From Pegoplata infirma (lineage: Eukaryota; Arthropoda; Insecta; Diptera; Anthomyiidae): DNA of 64,000 bases. A program made the translations under genes and the position numbers. The DNA is taken from the NCBI GenBank assembly GCA_963921195.1, contig OY992540.1, forward strand, positions 43,857,890 through 43,921,889, written 5' to 3'. Each line of letters starts with the position of its first letter. Within the stretch, counting starts at the first letter, position 1. The notes under the pieces were generated by a model. That model worked only from the letters and a program-made list of their open reading frames with translations. It searched no databases and was not told where the DNA came from. Of the stretch, positions 3,070-43,638 are shown piece by piece.

Positions 3070-3610
3070 CACTCAGAAAATTATGTAAGTTACTACATGT
3101 AAGTTGTTTGTATATTTTACAGTAGTTAGTTGTTTTCAACTACAAAGTCAGTTATTTTTGTATGAAAAATATCAAACAACTATTTCTGTTAGTTATTTTA
3201 AGTCGTTTTTTTTAATAACTAACAAAAAAGTACTGTGATGTAGTAACAGTTATTTAAAATAGTTAATTTTATTTTTTTTCCAAAAAAAAAATAAATTCCA
3301 AAAAAAAAAAAAAAATCGTTTTTTACTTTTTTAAAAAAAAAAACTTGGAAAAAATTTGGTCTTCAATTTTTTTTTCTGAAAAATTTTTTGAAAAAAATAT
3401 TACATATTGTTTATTTTTACTACATATTAGTTGTTTTGACTACAAATGTTAGTTATTTTTACTACATAAGTCAGTTGTTTTTTGTCAGTTAAAATAACTA
3501 ACATTGTTAGTTGATTTAACTGAAAAAGTAGTTGACCCCAAAACAACTTACAAAGTAGTTATTTTAACTGACATTTTCAGTTGATTTTACTAACATAATT
3601 TTTTAAGTGT
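3070..3610 (+). mobile_element. CACTC/TAGTTG MITE copy 1
   Basis: The element opens with CACTCAGAAAATTATG and closes with CATAATTTTTTAAGTG, and TA lies on both sides. The subterminal regions are filled with TAGTTGTTTT-type motifs in both orientations. It has no coding capacity. It is nearly identical to the neighbour at 3703-4263 and matches 29376-29945 in reverse. The 2-bp TA duplication resembles Tc1/mariner-type insertion, but the terminus alone does not assign a superfamily. Confidence 0.88.
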
Positions 3611-10724: not shown

Positions 10725-12522
10725 CACGGTGAGCCTCAGCGATGTTCAGGTTGAACTTTAGTGTCGACGAAAAGTGTAAGCGCAGTTCGATTTCTACATG
10801 AATAAATGTCACAAAACTGTTAACAGCGAAATCGTAGCTGATCGCATTCGCGAGATATCGCGAAATTAGTGTTTTTGTATTTTCTAAAATTTTGACAATG
10901 AAGTTTTTTAAATATCTTCAAAAACTGGGTATGCAGTTTTAATTGTATTTATTTACATGTCACAACACAGTTAACAGCGAAATCATATCTTCACAATTTC
11001 GCGAGAAATCGCGAAATTACTTTTTTGCTGTTTTTATTTTTGTTTTTATCTTCATATATGATTTTTTTAAATTTCATAAAAACATGGTATGCAGTTTTAC
11101 TTGTGGTTGATCAAAGGTCACACAGCTGTTGACATCAAAATTGTAGGTGCTAAATTTCGCGAGATATCGCGTAATTATATATATATATTTTTTTTTTATT
11201 ATTATATTTTAAACCCGGTTGTTTAGAAATGATAAAAAAAAGTGATAAGCAGTTGGATTTGAACATGCTGGAAGAAATTAAAACTGCCCACAAAAAAATT
11301 ATAGCTGCTCACTTTCGCGAGAAATAGCGAAAAACAGCTTTTTGGGGGTATTTCTTGTTGTGATTAATAAAAGAAGTTTCTTTAACATTGTTGAAAAACA
11401 CGAAATGCAGTTTGACTTGCTATTGATCAAAGGTCATAAGGCTGTTAACATTTAAATTCTAGCTGCTTAATTCTTCGAGATATCGCAAAAAAACTCGCTT
11501 ATCTACTATTTATTCATTAATTTGTGTTATTTGTGGTCTGTAAAAACATATACTTCAATTAACGACAAAAATGTGGTATGCAGTTTGAATTCGAGGTTAT
11601 TAGAGGTGACAAAACTGCAAGCATAAAAATTATAGACGATCAATTTCCCGAGAAATCGCAAAATTACTGTACGAGCTTTTATAATAAATTCCTTTTTTTT
11701 TTCTTTGGTATCAAAAAAAAAAAAAAAAAATTTAAGTAACGACAAGTATATGGTATGCAGTTTAAATTGCCCGTAACTGAAGGTGGTAAAACTGCTGAAA
11801 TCTATATATTGACGCTAATTTTCGCGAAAAATCGCGATAAATTTTTAAATTTTTTTTTCATTTATTTTGTATTGTAATAGATTTATAAATAATAGATTTA
11901 AGATTAACTTTGCGATTCCTTAAAGAATTGACCACAGAGGACTTTTGTGTTAGCAGTTTACTGTCTTTTTAACATGTACAAATAAAAATGCATACCACGT
12001 TTTTACACCATTTCAAAAGAACATGCAAAATTGAAAAATAAAAAAAAAAAAAAAAACTATATAAATATATAAATAATTCCGCGATATCTTGCGACAGTGT
12101 ACACCTACAACTTTGATGTCAACACCCTTATGACCTTCGATCACGTACACATTAAAGTGCATATCAGCTTTCCACAACATTTGAAAAAAACCTAGAAAAA
12201 GTTGAAAAACAAAAATTGACAGAAAAGTTATTTCGCGATTTCTCGCGAACTAAAGAAGATAATATTTCGATGTTTACTGTTTTGTGACCTTAAAATAAGT
12301 ACAATGAAAACTGTATACTCAGTTTTTGAAAATATTTAAAAAACTTCAATATCAAAATTTTTTAAAATATAAAATCACTAATTTCGCGATATCTCGCGAA
12401 TGCGATCAGCTACGATTTCGCTGAAAACAGTTTTGTGACAACTAATCATGTAGAAATCGAACTGCATTTACACTTTTCGTCGACACTAAAGTTCAACCTG
12501 AACATCGCTGGGGCTCACCGTG
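10725..12522. mobile_element. Foldback element F1 with TTCGCGAGA...TCGCG units
   Basis: The termini CACGGTGAGCCTCAGCGATG and its complement (ending GGCTCACCGTG) are flanked by TCAA on both sides, a 4-bp duplication. The whole interior is tandem units of about 145-176 bp. Each holds a GC-rich palindrome such as TTTCGCGAGAAATCGCGAAA and a phrase like TATGCAGTTTGAA. Seven units run forward (palindromes near 10855, 11000, 11160, 11312, 11475, 11650, 11822) and three run in reverse (near 12080, 12235, 12380). No coding region is present. The element sits inside the hAT at 9503-12754. A second copy is at 15923-21485. Confidence 0.88.
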
Positions 12523-15922: not shown

Positions 15923-16499
15923 CACGGTGAGCCTCAGCGATGTTTAGGTTCAACTTTAGTGTCGACGAAAAGTGTTAACGCAGTTCGATTTCTACTTGAC
16001 TAAATGTCACAAAACTGTTAACAGCGAAATCGTAGCTGCTCGCATTCGCGAGATATCGCGAAATTAGTATTTTTGTATTTTCTAAAATTTTAACAATGAA
16101 GTTTTTTAAATATTTCAAAAACTGAGTATGCAGATTTAATTGTATATATTTACAGGTCGGAAAACAGTTAACATCGAAATCATATCTTCTCAATTTTGCG
16201 AGAAATCGCAAAATTAAAAAAAAAAAAAATTGGAAAAAAAAATATTTTTCACGTAAATTAGCAGCCAATATATTGATTTGAGCAGTTTTACCACCTATAA
16301 ACAACTAAAATTTAAACTGCAAACAATATATTTATCGTTTCTTGATATTTTTCCCTTATTTTAGACTCTAAAGAAAAAATAAATTAATTAATATAAAAGC
16401 TTGAACAGTAATTTTGCAATTTCTCGGGAAATTGACCATCTATAATTTTTATGCTTGCAGTTTTGTCAATTTAAATAACCTCGAATTCAAACTGCATAC

Positions 16500-19400
16500 T
16501 AAGGGTGGGATAGTGTTGTGTGAGATTTTAAGCAGCAGTATTTGGAATCGCTAGAACCCCTCATTTTGTGAGGTTCGTAAAAAAAGTGTATGGGCCAAAA
16601 AATGGGGGAGGTCGGATAGGATCTAGGGGTCGCTCATCGGGGTCAAAGTTGGGCGTACATGGGAAAAAATCCACAAAAATCCCCACAACTCCCCTGGTTT
16701 TGCCCCTAGAGGGGTCAAATGTGAGACTGGCCCCCATTATTTTTTTGCCCCAAACACTTTTGCCAAATATACCTAAGCTCTATCTCCTCTCCTTAAGGGG
16801 GCTCCCATACAAAGGTTGAATGTTGAGACATATTTGCTCCTACCTCTCTAGCTGTCCTAGAAGTGAAACTAGAGGAATCAAATATATGACCGACCCCCAA
16901 TATTTTTTCATCCCAAACATTTTCTTATAACATACTTACCCTCTATCTTCAACCGTTAGGGTGGTCCCCATACATTTTTTTTATTTTTTTTTTAATTTTT
17001 CCTTAATTTTTCTTATTAAATCACCTCCTACCGGTCCAACGGTGCTTCCTAGAGGGGTCATTAGTAAGACCGACCCCCATTTATTTTTAGCCCCCAACAT
17101 TTCATCTGAATATACTAACTCCCTATCTTCAATTCCTAAGGAGTCTCCCACACAAAATGACATTTTTATAAAATTTGTTCCCACCGCTCTAACTGGCGCA
17201 GGGATGACCCTAGAGAATTGAAATGTATGACTGACCCCCAATATTTTTTCAGCCCCAACATTTTCTCCAAACAAACCTACCCTCTATTTTTTAGCCTTAA
17301 TTGGGTCCCCACACATTTTTTTTATTTTTTTATAAAATCAGATCTTATACTGACGCCCAATATTTTTTTAGCCCCAACATTTTCCCCAAACAAACCTACT
17401 CCTTATTTTTAAGTCTTAAGGGGGTTCCCACACATTTTTTATAATTTTTATTTATAAAATCAGCTCTTACCGCTCCCATGGTTAGGAACGGGAAATGCAG
17501 ACTGACCCCCAATAATTTTTGCCCCCTACTTTTTGTCCAACATACCTACGCCGTATTTCCACTTTGTTAGGGTAATATTTTTTCCTCTCCATTACGGCAC
17601 AACACGTTGTTATAGTCCTCTATTAATTTTACGCCTCTTTCGGCAGCGTCGTTGAAAACATGTAATTGAAGTAATATTTGCAGCGCTTGCTGGTAGTCCT
17701 CACAATTTTCCCAAGTGTTTGGACCGGAACCAATGAAATTTGTTGTTAATCCGAAGCGTAAAAAAAATGTTGGTGTCTCAGCTGTGACGCAGTGGCTGAA
17801 ATCATTTTTTATATTTTGATTTCTGGATTTACTTGTTGCGATTCCATGTTAATTATTTTCACACCTTCGAATCCAACCACGTGTACTGGATGATCACGAT
17901 CTTTGTTGCCACCTTCGCTGCTATCCCCCGAGTCATAATCTTCCCCGATATCATCGTCTTATTTTTCTTCGCTGTCAGATAGTTATCTTCCTCCTTGCAT
18001 TTGCCATTTTGCATTTTATTTCACAAGAGAAGCTGTTGCAAATAGTGCAACAGCTTCACCACTGAGATACCAAAGATGTCACAGAATCTCTTCTCCAATC
18101 GTTGAGCCATCTTATTAATTGAAGCATAATAAGCAATCGCTTTAAAAAAATTCAAATCATTATTTGGAGGTTCTATTGCTTTAGTGGCGCTAAACCAAAA
18201 TTGCACGTAAATTGTTTTTGGTCAAACCTAAAACATTTTTAGGCAATATATGCCTTTTGCCATCCATCGAGCATGACTGATGGGTCCTGGTGGGCTAAAA
18301 TGATTATTAGGAATATTTTCACCAAGGTATAATAAAACAATTTCAAGAAACTCCTTGAGTCGTCTCTGGGTCGCTTTTCCTTTATTTGAGCCCAACAAAA
18401 CCACTTGATGCAGGTTGGTATGTTGCCTGCCACTTTCTAATATTCTATGCCAGGACTGTATGGTTTGTCTTTTATATTTTCCCATTACTCTTTAAAACGC
18501 TCAAACATTGGAACTCCAGGTCCAGACGTTTTGCCGAATTTGGTTTCAAACACTTCTTTTAATTGATGTTCATTAATATGATTATTGCATGGCAGATATA
18601 GGGGGTCAGTTTGCATTTCCCGTCCCTAAGAGGCACTATGGGAGCGGTAAGAGCTGAATTTATAAATAAAAGTGTTGCTAATTATTGTACTTTTGTAAAT
18701 TCTAAATACTCCAACGTTGGGTTCCAGTACCATTACGAATTTGGTTTTCCTAAGGGGAGCACGCTTACAAAGTGGAAATACGCCGTAGGTATGTTTGGAA
18801 AAAATGTGGGGGGCTAAAACTAATGCGGGTAAGTCTGCATTCCCTATCCCTAAGAGGCACCATGGGAGCGATAACATCTGATTTTATAAAAAATATAAAA
18901 AAATGTGTGGGGACCCCCTTAAGGCTTAAAAATAAAGGGTAGGTTTGTTTGGGGAAAATGTTGGGGCTGAAAAAATATTGGGGGTCAGTCATACATTTAA
19001 CTTCTCTAGGGTCACCCCTGTGCCAGTTAAAGCGGTGGGAGCAAATTTTATAAAAATGTCATTTTGTGTGGGAGACCCCTTAGGAATTGGAGATAGGGAA
19101 GTGGCATATTCAGAAGAAATGTTGGGGGCTGAAAATAAATGGGGGTCGGCCTGCTAATGACCCCTCTAGGAGGCACCATTGGACCGGTAGGAGCTGATGT
19201 AATAAAACAAATTAAGAAAAAATAAAAAAAATGTATGGGGACCACCCTAAGGGTTGAAGATAGAGGGTAGGTATGTTCTAAGAAACTGTTGCTGTGGAAA
19301 AAATATTGGGGGTTGGTCATACATTTGGTTCATCTAGGGTCACTTCTTGGACTGCTAGAGAGGTAGGAGCAAATTTTTAAAAAAATTAAACCTTTGTATG

Positions 19401-19693
19401 GGAGCCCCCTTAGGAAGTGAAGATAAGGCTTAGGTATGTTCGGCAAAAGTGTTCGGGAGGAAAAAATAATGGGGGTTGGTCTCACATTTGACCCCTTTAG
19501 GGGCAAAACCAAAGGAGTTGCGGGGCTTTTTGTGTATTTTTTCCCCTTTACGCCCAACTTTGACCCCGATGAGCGACCCCTAGATCCTATCCGACCTGCC
19601 CCATTTTTTGGCTCATGCATTTTTTTTGCGAACCTCACAAAATAAGCGGTTCTAGCGGGTCGAAATCGGAAACTCGTGCACTATCCCACCCCT
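16500..19693. mobile_element. Foldback transposon with 6+6 repeat units and 9-bp TSD
   Basis: The ends TAAGGGTGGGATAGTG and CACTATCCCACCCCT are inverted. ACTGCATAC flanks both sides (16491-16499 and 19694-19702). The matching unit of F1 near 11570-11590 shows the target with one copy, so the 9-bp duplication is real. Each arm is about 1 kb of tandem ~160-bp units marked by GACCGACCCCCA and ACCCTCTATC words: six forward units (near 16725, 16888, 17065, 17228, 17352, 17500) and six reverse units (near 18602, 18826, 18981, 19141, 19309, 19471). The 1-kb centre carries a decayed gene. Tandem-repeat arms with a 9-bp duplication recall Drosophila Foldback and MULE elements. The relation is inferred, not proven. 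Confidence 0.9.
17584..18600 (-). pseudogene. Decayed transposase-like gene inside the foldback
   Basis: On the minus strand several collinear pieces read as one protein broken by stops and frameshifts. First comes FGKTSGPGVPMFERFKE (about 18500-18560), then FLEIVLLYLGENIPNNHFSP and SHARWMAKGIYCLKMF (18228-18400). After two stops, SATKAIEPPNNDLNFFKAI follows (about 18130-18190). After a frame change comes WYLSGEAVALFA (about 18035-18070). After a further change comes FFLRFGLTTNFIGSGPNTWE and FNDAAERGVKLIEDYNNVLC (17584-17770). The order and motifs match my recollection of an uncharacterised transposon-associated protein family of arthropods and cnidarians (motifs HARWMAK, WYLSEE, NDxAERGV). 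I cannot name its superfamily. Position between the arms makes it the likely former transposase. Confidence 0.7.
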
Positions 19694-20034
19694 ACTGCAT
19701 ACCACATTTTTGTCGTTAATTGAAGTAAATGTTTTTACAGACCAAAAATAACACAAAGTAATGAATAAATAGTAGTTTAGCGAGTTTTTTTAGCGATATC
19801 TCGAAGAATTGAGCAGTTAGAATTTAAATGTTAACAGCCTTATCACCTTTAATCAATAGCTAATCAAACTGCATTTCGTGTTTTTCAACAATGTTAAAGG
19901 AAACTGCTTTTGTTAATCAAAACAAGAAATACCCCCTAAAAGCTGTTTTTAGCTATTTCTCGCGAAAGTGAGCAGCTATAATACTTTTGTGGGCAGTTTT
20001 AATTTCTTCAAACATGTTCAAATCAAACTGCATA

Positions 20035-38552: not shown

Positions 38553-40457
38553 CTAGTCCCTGTCGTTAAACCAGTTTGAGCTTCTTATGAAACTCCTTAG
38601 ATGTTGAACCCTGACATCCGACAAATCAGAAAGATCGCACAGCTCACTAGATCCCAGTGAAGCAAGTCGCTGACCAGAAAGTGCCGGGCAATGGCAAATA
38701 AAGTGTTCGATAGTTTCCAACTCCTCTTCATCCATGCAACTTCGGCAAAAGTCATTCGACGGCACATTTAACCGCTCTGCGTGCTTCCCTATAAGACAGT
38801 GTCCGGTAATTATAGAAACCACCGTCGAAATCTCTCCTCTTGGAAGCGATATCAGCTCACCTGTGCGCCCCTGATTAAGAGAAGGCCAAATCAGTCGTGT
38901 TGTCTCACACGTCCATCCATTTGCCCATCTTTGATTAGTCTCCGTCGCAGAACAAAGCCGTAGGTTTTGCTTGCAAGTTTCTAGAGGCATACCAACACAT
39001 TCCAATTCTGTTGGAACCTGTAAGGTAGTTCCTAGTCTTGCAAGCTCATCGGCTTTGCAATTCCCTGGAATGTCTCTGTGCCCTGGGACCCATATGAGTC
39101 GTATGTTAAACTGCTTGGCCATCTCATTTAAAGACGTGCGGCAGTTAAGGGCAGATCTTGTTTTCAGAAACATTGAATCCAGGGACTTGACCGCGGCTTG
39201 ACTGTCAGTATAGATGTTGACTGCGGTTGTAGACAAGACATTGCAGCTCAACCAGTCAGCCACTTCCTTTATTGCCAGCATCTCTGCCTGGTAAACACTG
39301 CAATGATCTGGCAATCTACGAGCCAGGCTCAATCCAAGCTCTTCCGAATAGACCCCAAAGCCCACTTGTTCGTGCAGCCTCGATCCATCTGTGTAAAAAT
39401 TTATGTTAGCTCCACTTCCCGGAGCATCCCCCATCCAAGACTCCCTGGATGGTATCATAGTGGTAAAGTGGCGCTCAAAGAGGCTCAAAGAGGGAGCACA
39501 ATCCACATTTTGTGGTATTGTTATCTTTTTCAAGATCGCGCTATGGCCACAATCGCCGCTCCTCCATTGCAGCGTGCTATTAAGTCGAATTGCCGACGCA
39601 GCTGCATACTGCCTACCCAATATGTCCAAGGGTATCAGGTGAAGGAGGATTTCTAATGCAGCCGTAGGTGTAGTACGAAGAGCACCAGTGATGCACATTG
39701 ACCCCATTCTCTGTACCTTCGTGATAAAGACACAGTTCGCTTTTGTTTCTAAAGCAGGCCACCAGACAATGATTCCATACAGCAAAATTGGACGCACCAC
39801 TGCTGTATAGATCCAATGAACGACTTGAGGGTTAAAACCCCATCGTTTTCCAATGGCCCTTTTACAGGAATACAAAGCAATCGTTGCTTTTCTCACCCGT
39901 TCCTCAATATTACGCTTGAAATTCAGCTTCCTATCTAGAAATACTCCAAGATACTTGGCTCCATCTGAGAAGGTGATTTCAGTACCGTCCAGAGAAATAG
40001 GATTAAAAGCAGGAATCTTATTTTTCCTTGTAAATAAAACAAGCTCTGTTTTACTAGGATTAACTCCTAGACCACAGTCTCTTGCCCATTTAGACAGATC
40101 TTTCAGAGAACCCTGAAGAATGTCCCGCAATGTTGGCAGATGCTTCCCCTTTACCGCTATCTCGACATCGTCAGCATATGCGACAACATGACAACCACGT
40201 GCTTCTAGAGATAGTAGCATTGAATTCAGTGCCAGGTTCCAAAGAAGCGGCGAAAGAACACCTCCTTGTGGTGTGCCCCTATTGACAAATCGAGATATGA
40301 CGGACGCTCCCAATTCAGACGTTATACGTCTACTGGCAAGTAGGCTTTCCACCATTAAAACGATTTCACGCTTTACTCCCAGACCAGACAATGCCAATAT
40401 TATCGATTCTGGGATGACATTATTAAAAGCCCCCTCAATGTCAAGAAAGGCCACCAT
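38553..40457 (-). CDS. LINE ORF2, 3' part: reverse transcriptase and RNase H
   Basis: 634 codons from an internal ATG; the true frame joins the upstream part through a one-base loss. The RT starts with FLDIEGAFNNV (Asp 6, first catalytic Asp) and has GTPQGGVLSP (61-70) and YADD at 94-97 (about 40178-40167). The RNase H domain spans about 350-475 with the full DEDD set: D357 (YTDGS), E392 (QAEMLA), D418 (YTDSQ) and D470 (GNCKADELA), plus H460 in WVPGH. A C-terminal CCHC-type cluster (C571, C574, H585, C590) follows. The protein copies element RNA into DNA at the cut target and removes the RNA strand. All key residues are intact. Confidence 0.93.
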   Translation of the reverse strand: MVAFLDIEGAFNNVIPESIILALSGLGVKREIVLMVESLLASRRITSELGASVISRFVNRGTPQGGVLSPLLWNLALNSMLLSLEARGCHVVAYADDVEIAVKGKHLPTLRDILQGSLKDLSKWARDCGLGVNPSKTELVLFTRKNKIPAFNPISLDGTEITFSDGAKYLGVFLDRKLNFKRNIEERVRKATIALYSCKRAIGKRWGFNPQVVHWIYTAVVRPILLYGIIVWWPALETKANCVFITKVQRMGSMCITGALRTTPTAALEILLHLIPLDILGRQYAAASAIRLNSTLQWRSGDCGHSAILKKITIPQNVDCAPSLSLFERHFTTMIPSRESWMGDAPGSGANINFYTDGSRLHEQVGFGVYSEELGLSLARRLPDHCSVYQAEMLAIKEVADWLSCNVLSTTAVNIYTDSQAAVKSLDSMFLKTRSALNCRTSLNEMAKQFNIRLIWVPGHRDIPGNCKADELARLGTTLQVPTELECVGMPLETCKQNLRLCSATETNQRWANGWTCETTRLIWPSLNQGRTGELISLPRGEISTVVSIITGHCLIGKHAERLNVPSNDFCRSCMDEEELETIEHFICHCPALSGQRLASLGSSELCDLSDLSDVRVQHLRSFIRSSNWFNDRD

Positions 40458-40468
40458 AGTGTACTCCT

Positions 40469-42145
40469 TTACCGAAAGCGATCTCTCGATGGTACAACGA
40501 GCTCATGAAGAGCCGTTTCTGTTGATCGTCCCTTGCTGTATGCATGTTGCTTTGTCGAAAGCAACCTCGGGTCAATCACTCTACGCAAATATGAGTCTAT
40601 CATTCGTTCCATTGTCTTTAACAAAAAAGAAGACAGACTAATTGGTCTGAAATCCTTCGGAGCTGTGTGGGAACTTTTCCCAGCCTTCGGGATAAATACG
40701 ACTCTGGTATCCCTCCATTTTAAAGGAATATACGACCAGTTGATGCATGCTATGTATAGATTATACAGCAACGGGGCTATATAGTCCGACACTTGCTGCA
40801 ACTCAGCCGGGATTATACCATCAGGTCCCGGGGATTTATAGGGCCTGAAGCTTTTTATCGCCCAGATTAATGTTGGCATATTTATTATTTCCGAAGCAAT
40901 TTCAGATGCTTGGGCGTCAGAACGTTCCAAAGCTTGAAACGGCGTCATGGAATTGCCCGGAAAATGCGTGTTTAAAAGGAGATCCAGTGACTCTCCACTG
41001 GAGGAAGACCACACCCCATTAGGATCTTTCAGGTATCCCAGGGTGCAAGGAGAAGAAGCCAGAACCTTGCGCAGCCTGGATGCCTCAGAAACGTCTTCTA
41101 TGTTTCCACAGAAGTTTTTCCAAGAATCACATTTTGCATTTCTGATCATCTTTTTATAACTCTTAAGTTGCAGCCTGTATGCAGACCAGTCCTCGTCCGC
41201 TCTTGAAAATTTAGCCTTATTAAAGAGCTTTCTGCAGGAATCTCTGCTCGTCTGCAACTCATTTGACCACCAAGGTGGCTTTTTTTTCCCTCTAGGCTTT
41301 GAAGAAGGGCAAGACGCATCCAGGCACCTATTACAAACATTTGTTATATGGTCAACCAGACAGTCAATTTCCGCCAAACTATGCGGTTCAGATAAGGGTA
41401 CTTCATCCAAAAGCAAAGAAAAAGTCTCCCTATATTTCACCCAGTTTGTTCTCCTTAGATTTCTAGAGACTGTCTCAACCGGGGCACGCTCCCTGAGTAA
41501 AAACTCAATGTAGCGATGATCTGAGAAAGAATGCTCTTCCAAAACTCTCCAGTCATCAATTCTATCAGACAATGTATCTGATACAAGTGTTACGTCAAGA
41601 ACCTCTTGCCGCGTACTTGTAACGAAAGTTGGTTCACCACCCTTGTTACAAATATACAGGTTAGTGCTTAACAAAAACTCCAAAAGTGATTCGCCTCTAT
41701 CATTTGTGTCTGTACTTCCCCATATCGAATGATGTGCATTAGCATCACAACACACTACTAACTGGTGTCCCCTTGATTCAGACTCCCGAATTAGACCGAC
41801 AACCTTCTCCGGGGGTATTGACCCCGGATTAGGAAAATACGCAGAGGCGAGCCAAATAGACTTCCCATGAAGCTCTAAGCTAGCCGCTGTAACATCCATA
41901 TCACTAAAAGTTGATAAAAAGAATATATTTAAGCCATTTTTTGCCAAGATACAGGCTCTTGGTGAGCCCTCACCTTTGGCAACCACCAACTTAAACCCAG
42001 GGGTCTTCAATCCGCAAACCCTGCCACCCCGCACCCAGGGCTCTTGGATAAAAACCAAGTCAACTGCTCCTGTCGTCAGGCGCAGCAAGAGTGCAACTGA
42101 GGCTGCCTTACAGTGATGGAGGTTTATTTGTAGGAACCGCAACAT
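40469..42145 (-). CDS. LINE ORF2, 5' part: endonuclease and start of RT
   Basis: 558 codons before the frame breaks. Residues 1-225 form an apurinic-type endonuclease: QINLHH with N8, QEPW with E35, CDANAH with D134 and N136, and SDHR with D209 and H210. This enzyme nicks the target to start reverse transcription. After a linker with a basic stretch (GKKKPPWW, 287-294), the RT begins: YKSPGPDGIIPAEL (436-449), RVVFIPKAGK (481-490) and DFRPISL (498-504). The frame ends at 40469 because one base is lost in the AA run near 40496-40497; the other frame continues in register. The start at 42145 overlaps the ORF1 stop, so translation probably uses reinitiation or frameshifting. Without the repair of one base, no full ORF2 is made. 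Confidence 0.93.
   Translation of the reverse strand: MLRFLQINLHHCKAASVALLLRLTTGAVDLVFIQEPWVRGGRVCGLKTPGFKLVVAKGEGSPRACILAKNGLNIFFLSTFSDMDVTAASLELHGKSIWLASAYFPNPGSIPPEKVVGLIRESESRGHQLVVCCDANAHHSIWGSTDTNDRGESLLEFLLSTNLYICNKGGEPTFVTSTRQEVLDVTLVSDTLSDRIDDWRVLEEHSFSDHRYIEFLLRERAPVETVSRNLRRTNWVKYRETFSLLLDEVPLSEPHSLAEIDCLVDHITNVCNRCLDASCPSSKPRGKKKPPWWSNELQTSRDSCRKLFNKAKFSRADEDWSAYRLQLKSYKKMIRNAKCDSWKNFCGNIEDVSEASRLRKVLASSPCTLGYLKDPNGVWSSSSGESLDLLLNTHFPGNSMTPFQALERSDAQASEIASEIINMPTLIWAIKSFRPYKSPGPDGIIPAELQQVSDYIAPLLYNLYIACINWSYIPLKWRDTRVVFIPKAGKSSHTAPKDFRPISLSSFLLKTMERMIDSYLRRVIDPRLLSTKQHAYSKGRSTETALHELVVPSRDRFR
40490..40500 (-). other. Single-base frameshift site in LINE ORF2
   Basis: Upstream of this point the conserved frame ends HELV; downstream, the conserved frame resumes as TIERSLSVKEYTMVAFLDIE. 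The join needs one more base within the short A run (plus strand, 40496-40497). A one-base deletion after insertion, or an assembly error, both fit. Confidence 0.85.
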
Positions 42146-43511
42146 CGTGTTTTATTTCCACCATCCTTTCCACCACTGTGTTATTGGCTTCATCCTCCGT
42201 GTTATCAAAGAGGTCGCATTCGTCCCCAGATTCGGTTTCGAATAAGCCAGATATATATCCCATCTGTTCTGAATCGGAGGCAACAGAACTCTCCGAATTC
42301 CTCACTGCATGGGCCTCGTCCTGAATGTCACCCATCGTGGCATCAGCTTTATCCTCCATGCCATCACAGAGGTCGCATTCGTTACCAGATTCGGTTTCAA
42401 AAATGCCAGATGCATCTCCCATCAGCCTAGAATCGGCCAGCTGAATATCAACCTTTTCCAGATTCTCCTCCCCAGCCGACTCTGCCACTGGCTTGTCTGC
42501 GTCCAAAATAGTCTTCTGGTCGCCCTTGTAGACATTGACTCTTATATGAAAAAATCCAAATCTAATAATGCCGTCAGTCCTAGCTAAAAGCGGAAGCGAT
42601 TCCTCATTAACCAAGACCACTGCTTGACGACGAGCGCCCTCCATCTCACCCAATCTGGCAATTTGCCAATTCTGAGTTGGAAGGTCAGGATTGCAGACTT
42701 TTATCATCTTAAGAATCACCGCAGTGTCATTTGTAGCCATTGGGATCCATGCATGAGCTCTGGGTTGCGAGGGGATATCATGTTTTTCCACAACGTCCAG
42801 TCTGGCTCCAGGCCATAACTCTCCCACTTGGCTAATGGCAACCTTAAACACGGCTGCGGATCTTTCGTTCCCAAAAGCAACGAGTTTTACTCGCCCCTGA
42901 TACCAACCTGCGTTGACAGTAGTAGGGAGAAAATCAGGCATACTCTCAAGGAGCCTATAGTAGATTTCATTTAGTTTAGTTTCAACTAAACTCCACTTGT
43001 CCCTTGGAATACTACAATCCCCATTTTGCCTGCTTATCACAGCCCTAACGAAGTTACCTTTAACCACTTCACTAAAAGACTGAGTCCAGACGTTGCCGGT
43101 CACCTTAGATCTCTTAGGTAAAGGTTTCTCGTCGGGCGAGCGCAACCTTTTACCAGACTTCGATGACGAGGCCGAAACAGCGCTCTGTTTGTCAGATGCG
43201 CGCATTGCCGAAAGTTTGTCCTGTTCTTCAATGACTCCTTTCGCCCATGATAGCGACGCCCTCTCACGTTCGGAGAGCTTCGTTCCATCAAGTTGGCTTA
43301 GTCTGTTAATTATTTTCAAACAAAGCCGTCTCTGGTTGTGCCTGACCTTTGATGGTTTAAGTTTCTTTTTCTTTTTACCACCAATATTAGGCTGAGCACC
43401 CCTACCATAATCAAGGTCGGACTTCAAGGTCGCAACCCTAAGACCAGTGCTAGGACCAGCACCAGTCGGTGAGGCAGAGCCTCGAATTAAATCGGTATCA
43501 TTTGTGTCCAT
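42108..43511 (-). CDS. LINE ORF1, RNA-binding type (DUF4780-like)
   Basis: 467 codons. The N-terminus is basic (GGKKKKKLKPSK, 44-55; KRLRSPDEKPLPKRSK, 121-136) and may bind nucleic acid or direct nuclear import. The region 195-330, with RAHAWIPMA, KVCNPDLPTQNW, AVVLVNEESL and GFFHIRVNVYK, resembles DUF4780, which is known from ORF1 proteins of fly LINEs. No CCHC knuckle is present. The C-terminal 100 residues are acidic and contain a duplicated segment of about 53 residues (364-416 and 417-467, both with FETESGxECDL). ORF1 proteins coat the element RNA. The gene is fully open and ends inside ORF2. Confidence 0.9.
   Translation of the reverse strand: MDTNDTDLIRGSASPTGAGPSTGLRVATLKSDLDYGRGAQPNIGGKKKKKLKPSKVRHNQRRLCLKIINRLSQLDGTKLSERERASLSWAKGVIEEQDKLSAMRASDKQSAVSASSSKSGKRLRSPDEKPLPKRSKVTGNVWTQSFSEVVKGNFVRAVISRQNGDCSIPRDKWSLVETKLNEIYYRLLESMPDFLPTTVNAGWYQGRVKLVAFGNERSAAVFKVAISQVGELWPGARLDVVEKHDIPSQPRAHAWIPMATNDTAVILKMIKVCNPDLPTQNWQIARLGEMEGARRQAVVLVNEESLPLLARTDGIIRFGFFHIRVNVYKGDQKTILDADKPVAESAGEENLEKVDIQLADSRLMGDASGIFETESGNECDLCDGMEDKADATMGDIQDEAHAVRNSESSVASDSEQMGYISGLFETESGDECDLFDNTEDEANNTVVERMVEIKHDVAVPTNKPPSL
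42180..42430 (-). repeat. ~159-bp tandem duplication in ORF1
   Basis: The word AGGTCGCATTCGT and the following CCAGATTCGGTTTC occur at about 42209 and again at about 42368, the same distance as the 53-residue repeat of the protein. The two units differ at several bases, so the duplication predates this insertion. Confidence 0.8.
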
Positions 43512-43638
43512 ATTTTCATTTTCCTGGATGTGGTCATGAAAATATTACAAAAATACCTATTACGAACAATTTCAAAAATTCAATTAATAGCACGGAGATA
43601 AATTAAAACACGTCCACACTTGTCAACAGTTGAACGAA

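Follow-up and report, generated by a model that had tools for sequence, protein, structure and literature searches.

A foldback element with hAT-type ends and target-site duplications carries a decayed HARWMAK-family transposase gene in Pegoplata infirma

We describe a 3,195-bp foldback element in a 64,000-nucleotide stretch of the genome of the anthomyiid fly Pegoplata infirma (assembly GCA_963921195.1, OY992540.1, positions 43,857,890 to 43,921,889 of the forward strand; hereafter the window, which lies on contig C5 of the 1.384-Gb assembly that we searched). The element in all probability belongs to the hAT superfamily, as a non-autonomous foldback: short inverted ends, patterned 8-bp target-site duplications and the remains of a gene for a HARWMAK-family protein with a hAT-like predicted fold identify it as a hAT-type foldback rather than one of the NOF/Mutator type. 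Its boundaries and those of its target site are as follows.

16500–19694, minus strand: whole hAT-type foldback element, 3,195 bp (both ends present in 19 of the 20 window-type copies examined, at 3,102–3,206 bp)
16500–16515, plus strand: left terminal inverted repeat TAAGGGTGGGATAGTG, 16 bp
19679–19694, minus strand: right terminal inverted repeat CACTATCCCACCCCTA, 16 bp
16492–16499, no strand: left target-site duplication CTGCATAC, from copy comparison and the empty site
19695–19702, no strand: right target-site duplication CTGCATAC, from copy comparison and the empty site
11278–11832, minus strand: paralogue of the host repeat, holding the target site in its empty state (11576–11583)

The 16-bp termini, TAAGGGTGGGATAGTG and CACTATCCCACCCCTA, are inverted repeats of one another with one mismatch, which agrees with the inverted ends reported in a first-pass annotation of the window. 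The terminal repeat is TARGGGTGGGATAGTG, and the element reads TAAGGG...CCCCTA from end to end. The terminal inverted repeats of hAT elements begin YARNG; this one is short and has that start. The first-pass annotation had placed the last base of the element at 19693 and its duplication at 9 bp. A 9-bp string, ACTGCATAC, is present on both flanks, but its right-hand A (19694) is the true last base of the element. When the flanks are joined without the element and one copy of the repeat, they align through the junction to 11832–11278 at 88% (559 columns, 7 gap openings), so the empty target that had been proposed near 11580, in a paralogous unit of the repeat F1, is borne out. Placed separately on this paralogue, the left flank stops at 11576 and the right flank begins at 11583, an overlap of 8 bp. 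Since the extra A belongs to the element and the empty-site overlap is 8 bp, the duplication in the window (CTGCATAC) is 8 bp and not 9; the longer reading is ruled out by this empty site and by the 43 complete copies considered below. The host of the insertion is a unit of another foldback-like repeat (F1; window 10739–12512 and 16200–16499 / 19695–20000), the units of which hold CGCGATATCTCGCGA-like stretches; around 10739 and 12512 the sequence is mirror-imaged.

The same target pattern recurs across copies. We studied two types of element, that of the window (20 copies examined) and a commoner type (30 of 84 scored loci examined); with the window's own copy these make 51 elements, in 43 of which both ends lie within the examined stretch. 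The duplication is exactly 8 bp in 38 of these 43 complete copies and 9 bp in four (L010, L043, L048 and L049), and L025 has an 8-bp duplication only if its terminal base was substituted. Among the 38 exact 8-bp duplications, T occupies position 2 in 36 and A occupies position 7 in 36, with both present in 34. Aligning other insertions, which had been proposed as a means of confirming 9 bp, therefore gives mainly 8 bp in the hAT pattern: Hermes is described as preferring 8-bp 5'-nTnnnnAn-3' targets (PMC10368747), and hAT elements as being 2.5–5 kb in length with inverted ends of 10–25 bp and 8-bp duplications (PMC3942097). The refuting outcome named in advance, other copies without a 9-bp duplication, is thus partly borne out.

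Just inside the ends lie two long arms of opposed tandem units.

16540–17573, plus strand: left arm, six ~160-bp tandem units (anchors at 16725, 16888, 17068, 17229, 17348 and 17500)
18591–19666, minus strand: right arm, six units in opposite orientation (anchors at 18591, 18815, 18970, 19131, 19298 and 19461)

The six anchors in each arm (0–4 mismatches of 21 to the anchor motif on the left, 0–6 on the right) and the 87–91% complementarity of the arms confirm the six plus six ~160-bp units first noted there. In the repeat search, opposed segment I1 (16540–17000 / 19206–19666) is 87% complementary and segment I2 (17067–17348 / 18871–19152) 91%. The units alternate, such that 16832–16995 and 17173–17336, at a spacing of 341, are 78% alike. 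A 24-bp spacer (16516–16539), to which the other end has no match, separates the left arm from its terminal repeat; the right-hand spacer has 12 bp (19667–19678). Within one element of the commoner type the two arms differ by 5.0% on average (21 complete elements); between copies, the divergence of a given arm is 3.4–3.7% (40 sampled pairs each, from the same 21). We also noted that, across L029–L058, this pairwise arm divergence exceeds that of the centre, which diverges by 1.05% on average from the majority.

The element is abundant. A whole-element search of the genome returned 213 matching pieces, and at least 22 places, counting that in the window, match over practically the full length at 90% identity or more. 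The exact 16-bp end occurs 2,551 times (1,279 + 1,272) and the reversed control pattern 0 times, which puts these ends beyond chance. When the first 100 listed ends are paired, 84 of them fall into 42 opposed pairs with a separation below 6 kb. Of these pairs, 32 have a span of 3.05–3.6 kb, and every one of the 42 combines one TAAGGG end with one TAGGGG end. If those 100 ends are typical, the genome would hold about a thousand paired elements. Mean pairwise divergence within the window type is 5.1% (20 elements: the window copy and 19 with both ends, L016 being dropped). Two window-type copies, L002 and L003 (C1:45398225 and C1:45361008), are identical; they have opposite orientations, and their starts are ~37 kb apart. 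Their target duplications differ (ATATAGAT versus the 9-bp TTGGTATAA), and their flanks share only a 74-bp match at 78%. Recent transposition of the window-type element is the best reading of this pair, because identical copies have different duplications and unrelated flanks.

The centre of the element holds a broken gene.

17567–18625, minus strand: decayed remnant of a HARWMAK-family transposase, which starts near the CRHH region and lacks the stretch holding the first two catalytic Asp residues

The motifs HARWMAK, WYLSGEAVAL and FNDAAERGVKLI sit in three different minus-strand frames, in keeping with the broken protein that had been recognized from the letters of the window. Relative to L039, a reference copy of the commoner type, four frameshifting lesions occur in 20/20 window-type copies and two more in 19/20. 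In the commoner type the gene begins only at residue ~120 of protein P0002, directly at the arm, and so lacks both Asp residues; furthermore, a stop at codon 37 is common to 28 of the 30 examined copies. Given the shared frameshifts of the one type, and the missing Asp residues and shared stop of the other, the copies studied are non-autonomous. The window-type gene starts ~43 bp further upstream than that of the commoner type, and L062 retains the gene from residue ~91; these different arm/gene junctions suggest repeated or stepwise loss of the gene's 5' part. Each of the 30 examined loci of the commonest type has the gene remnant close to one or both of these ends, and the remnant is also present in the window type; it is therefore a true part of the foldback group. 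In two relatives, L060 and L061, pieces of the transposase gene are themselves in inverted order.

As for the protein family, the best match to its predicted fold is Hermes, a hAT transposase, and the model has the features of a Hermes-like RNase H transposase with a helical insertion. In a profile comparison (probability 43%), hAT counterparts line up with CRHH, with the Asp of HWDGK and with that of FDTT, and the Glu of AERG is assigned only by its place in the fold. The idea put forward in the first-pass annotation, that HARWMAK proteins may be the transposase of a foldback group outside the NOF type, is thus consistent with the predicted fold, whereas the kinship with Drosophila Foldback (FB) elements drawn alongside it is not supported, the duplications being mainly 8 bp and of hAT pattern. 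The named database members of the family (from aphids and their kin, psyllids, an ant and a leech) are labelled uncharacterized or hypothetical. When a profile of 50 relatives was run against the Protein Data Bank, no transposase came up, and the two weak matches, to MPP1 and a de novo protein (E 0.007 and 0.021), were judged to be chance. NCBIfam gave no meaningful match, and the lowest Pfam E-value, 6e-4, came from one of 62 members and pointed to an unrelated family. In one aphid gene model, P0102, the C-terminal half of a HARWMAK protein is joined to a BED-type hAT piece, which may reflect a nested insertion or an annotation artefact.

A protein search of the fly's own genome gave 84 scored matches of 3,293 candidates, all beginning at residue 118–124 of P0002; a search with the N-terminal part gave 42 matches (all 131 candidates scored). 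One of the latter, L059, matches at 93% and has another inverted repeat upstream; within 6 kb, the ends and arms described here are both absent. Three decayed copies match at 67–72%, three short ones from residue 90 on at 83–86% (L062 among them), and the remaining matches are to more distant families. L068, a 4.6-kb element, has the right ends and, from residue ~100 on, a similarly broken gene; contig C1 has three further end pairs 5.1–5.5 kb apart. Long open frames of at least 400 amino acids occur in 12 of the 42 N-terminal matches. We examined five of these HARWMAK genes (L063–L067), none of which lies in such arms; inverted repeats downstream of the gene in L063 and L064, and one 26-bp inverted match on either side in L066, do not resemble the arms of the element. 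L067 (1112–2916) is an apparently intact HARWMAK-type gene, with an exon, a short intron and a 477-amino-acid frame; it has no inverted arms in 4.5 kb, no second full-length copy of it was found in the genome, and it is a candidate host gene of hAT-transposase origin.

Several of our results weigh against assigning the element to hAT. The Foldseek match of the model to Hermes has a TM-score of 0.43, with a root-mean-square deviation of 12 Å over the whole length, and the profile comparison, at its probability of 43%, covers the N-terminal half only. None of the 62 relatives, many of which lack the N-terminus, matches Pfam hATC or BED at E ≤ 0.1; such a match is common in the hAT superfamily, and not defining. 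Four of the 43 duplications have 9 bp. Genome searches, with the three C1 pairs of 5.1–5.5 kb outside the set examined, turned up no intact element that joins these ends to a full transposase, so the copies with intact centres that the first-pass annotation had proposed to look for did not come to light and transposase and ends are linked only through remnants. Finally, L063–L067 have no hAT-type ends in ~1.1–1.5 kb upstream and 1.6–2.7 kb downstream of each gene. Long-frame relatives outside such arms, the consistent occurrence of which had been named in advance as evidence against a tie between gene and arms, therefore exist (five of the 12), but a remnant stands near such ends in 30/30 loci of the commonest type. 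With no intact element found, and with the long-frame relatives examined lying without such arms or ends, we infer a transposase acting in trans, which the searches did not bring to light.

These same results bear on a different account, in which some other hAT transposase moves the foldback and the HARWMAK fragment was merely captured: the fragment is truncated, an intact copy with these ends was not found, and the five long-frame relatives have no such ends. We consider capture unlikely. Even with the protein set aside, both the ends and the target pattern are hAT-type, and the protein, too, is hAT-like; moreover, the same gene occurs in types with different arm/gene junctions (the window type, residue ~120, and residue ~91 in L062) and in an older relative, L060, with arms ~75% identical. 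It is very improbable that the truncated open frame of the commoner type is a functional product, for example a transposition repressor, even though the matched stretch past the shared stop (~355 codons) has no further stop in 18/30 copies. Substitutions are spread over codon positions 1/2/3 (55/66/77 private; 15/8/9 among variants in at least three copies), and, a slight third-position excess of private substitutions aside, they show no sign of purifying selection; at a mean divergence of 1.05% the copies may be too young for further decay, and the shared stop and missing 5' end argue for a passenger. There is scarcely any likelihood that the element is an FB/NOF-like foldback of the Mutator type that makes 9-bp duplications, as its tandem-repeat arms, the 9-bp string on both sides and the four 9-bp copies might suggest, although duplication length alone cannot separate hAT from Mutator foldbacks, because the ranges given for the Mutator/foldback family Tm1 (8–10 bp; PMC3169594) and the Mutator foldback Muta1 (8 or 9 bp; PMC5225508) include 8 bp.

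For the hAT-type foldback that we favour, we envisage that an intact HARWMAK-type hAT transposase, encoded elsewhere, would have bound the element ends, perhaps via the repeated arm units, excised the element and inserted it across an 8-bp stagger. The ancestor would have been an autonomous hAT element, the gene of which was shortened at its 5' end, at the present junction with the arm, leaving the central gene a dead passenger. More tentatively, and with odds that we put slightly below even, a HARWMAK hAT lineage that is invisible to Pfam and seemingly without a BED finger could have gained the foldback architecture independently of Mutator and P, with kilobase ~160-bp arrays as binding platforms and with arm growth into the gene repeatedly producing highly successful non-autonomous elements.

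Elsewhere in the window, 38553–43544 (minus strand) holds a LINE-type (long interspersed nuclear element) retroelement with three long open frames, the closest named proteins of which are in flies (Drosophila at 51%, and Episyrphus); this points weakly to a higher fly as the probable host.

Most foldback elements have been assigned to Mutator, but not all: Galileo, for instance, belongs to the P superfamily (PMC4079207) and is also presented as a P-type exception in PMC4168063. None of the titles and abstract starts of the open-access matches listed has a hAT foldback as its subject. A foldback of hAT type would add another superfamily to the foldback-bearing transposons and support the view that the foldback shape arises repeatedly through arm growth. 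It also points to a possible function for a protein family covered by no Pfam model, and about a thousand similar long inverted repeats would be potential substrates for chromosome inversions.

Compared with Hermes and other hAT elements, the element shares the 8-bp nTnnnnAn duplication, short inverted ends and a predicted transposase fold with an insertion domain, and differs in its ~1-kb arms of ~160-bp units just inside those ends and in the lack of a Pfam hAT or BED match among the 62 relatives. With Drosophila FB/NOF, Tetris, Tm1 and Muta1, as these are described, it has in common long inverted arms with tandem repeats and many non-autonomous copies; unlike them, it has a mainly 8-bp, patterned duplication and a gene remnant that appears hAT-like, in place of a MULE (Mutator-like element) or NOF gene. 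Galileo has a P-type THAP transposase, whereas no THAP match was found in the 62 relatives at E ≤ 0.1, many of which lack the N-terminus, where THAP would lie. On the other hand, Galileo too has foldback-like arms outside Mutator, and the tandem repeats in its long ends are reported to contain sites that its THAP domain binds (PMC3688188). The ~160-bp units described here may, by analogy, be transposase-binding arrays.
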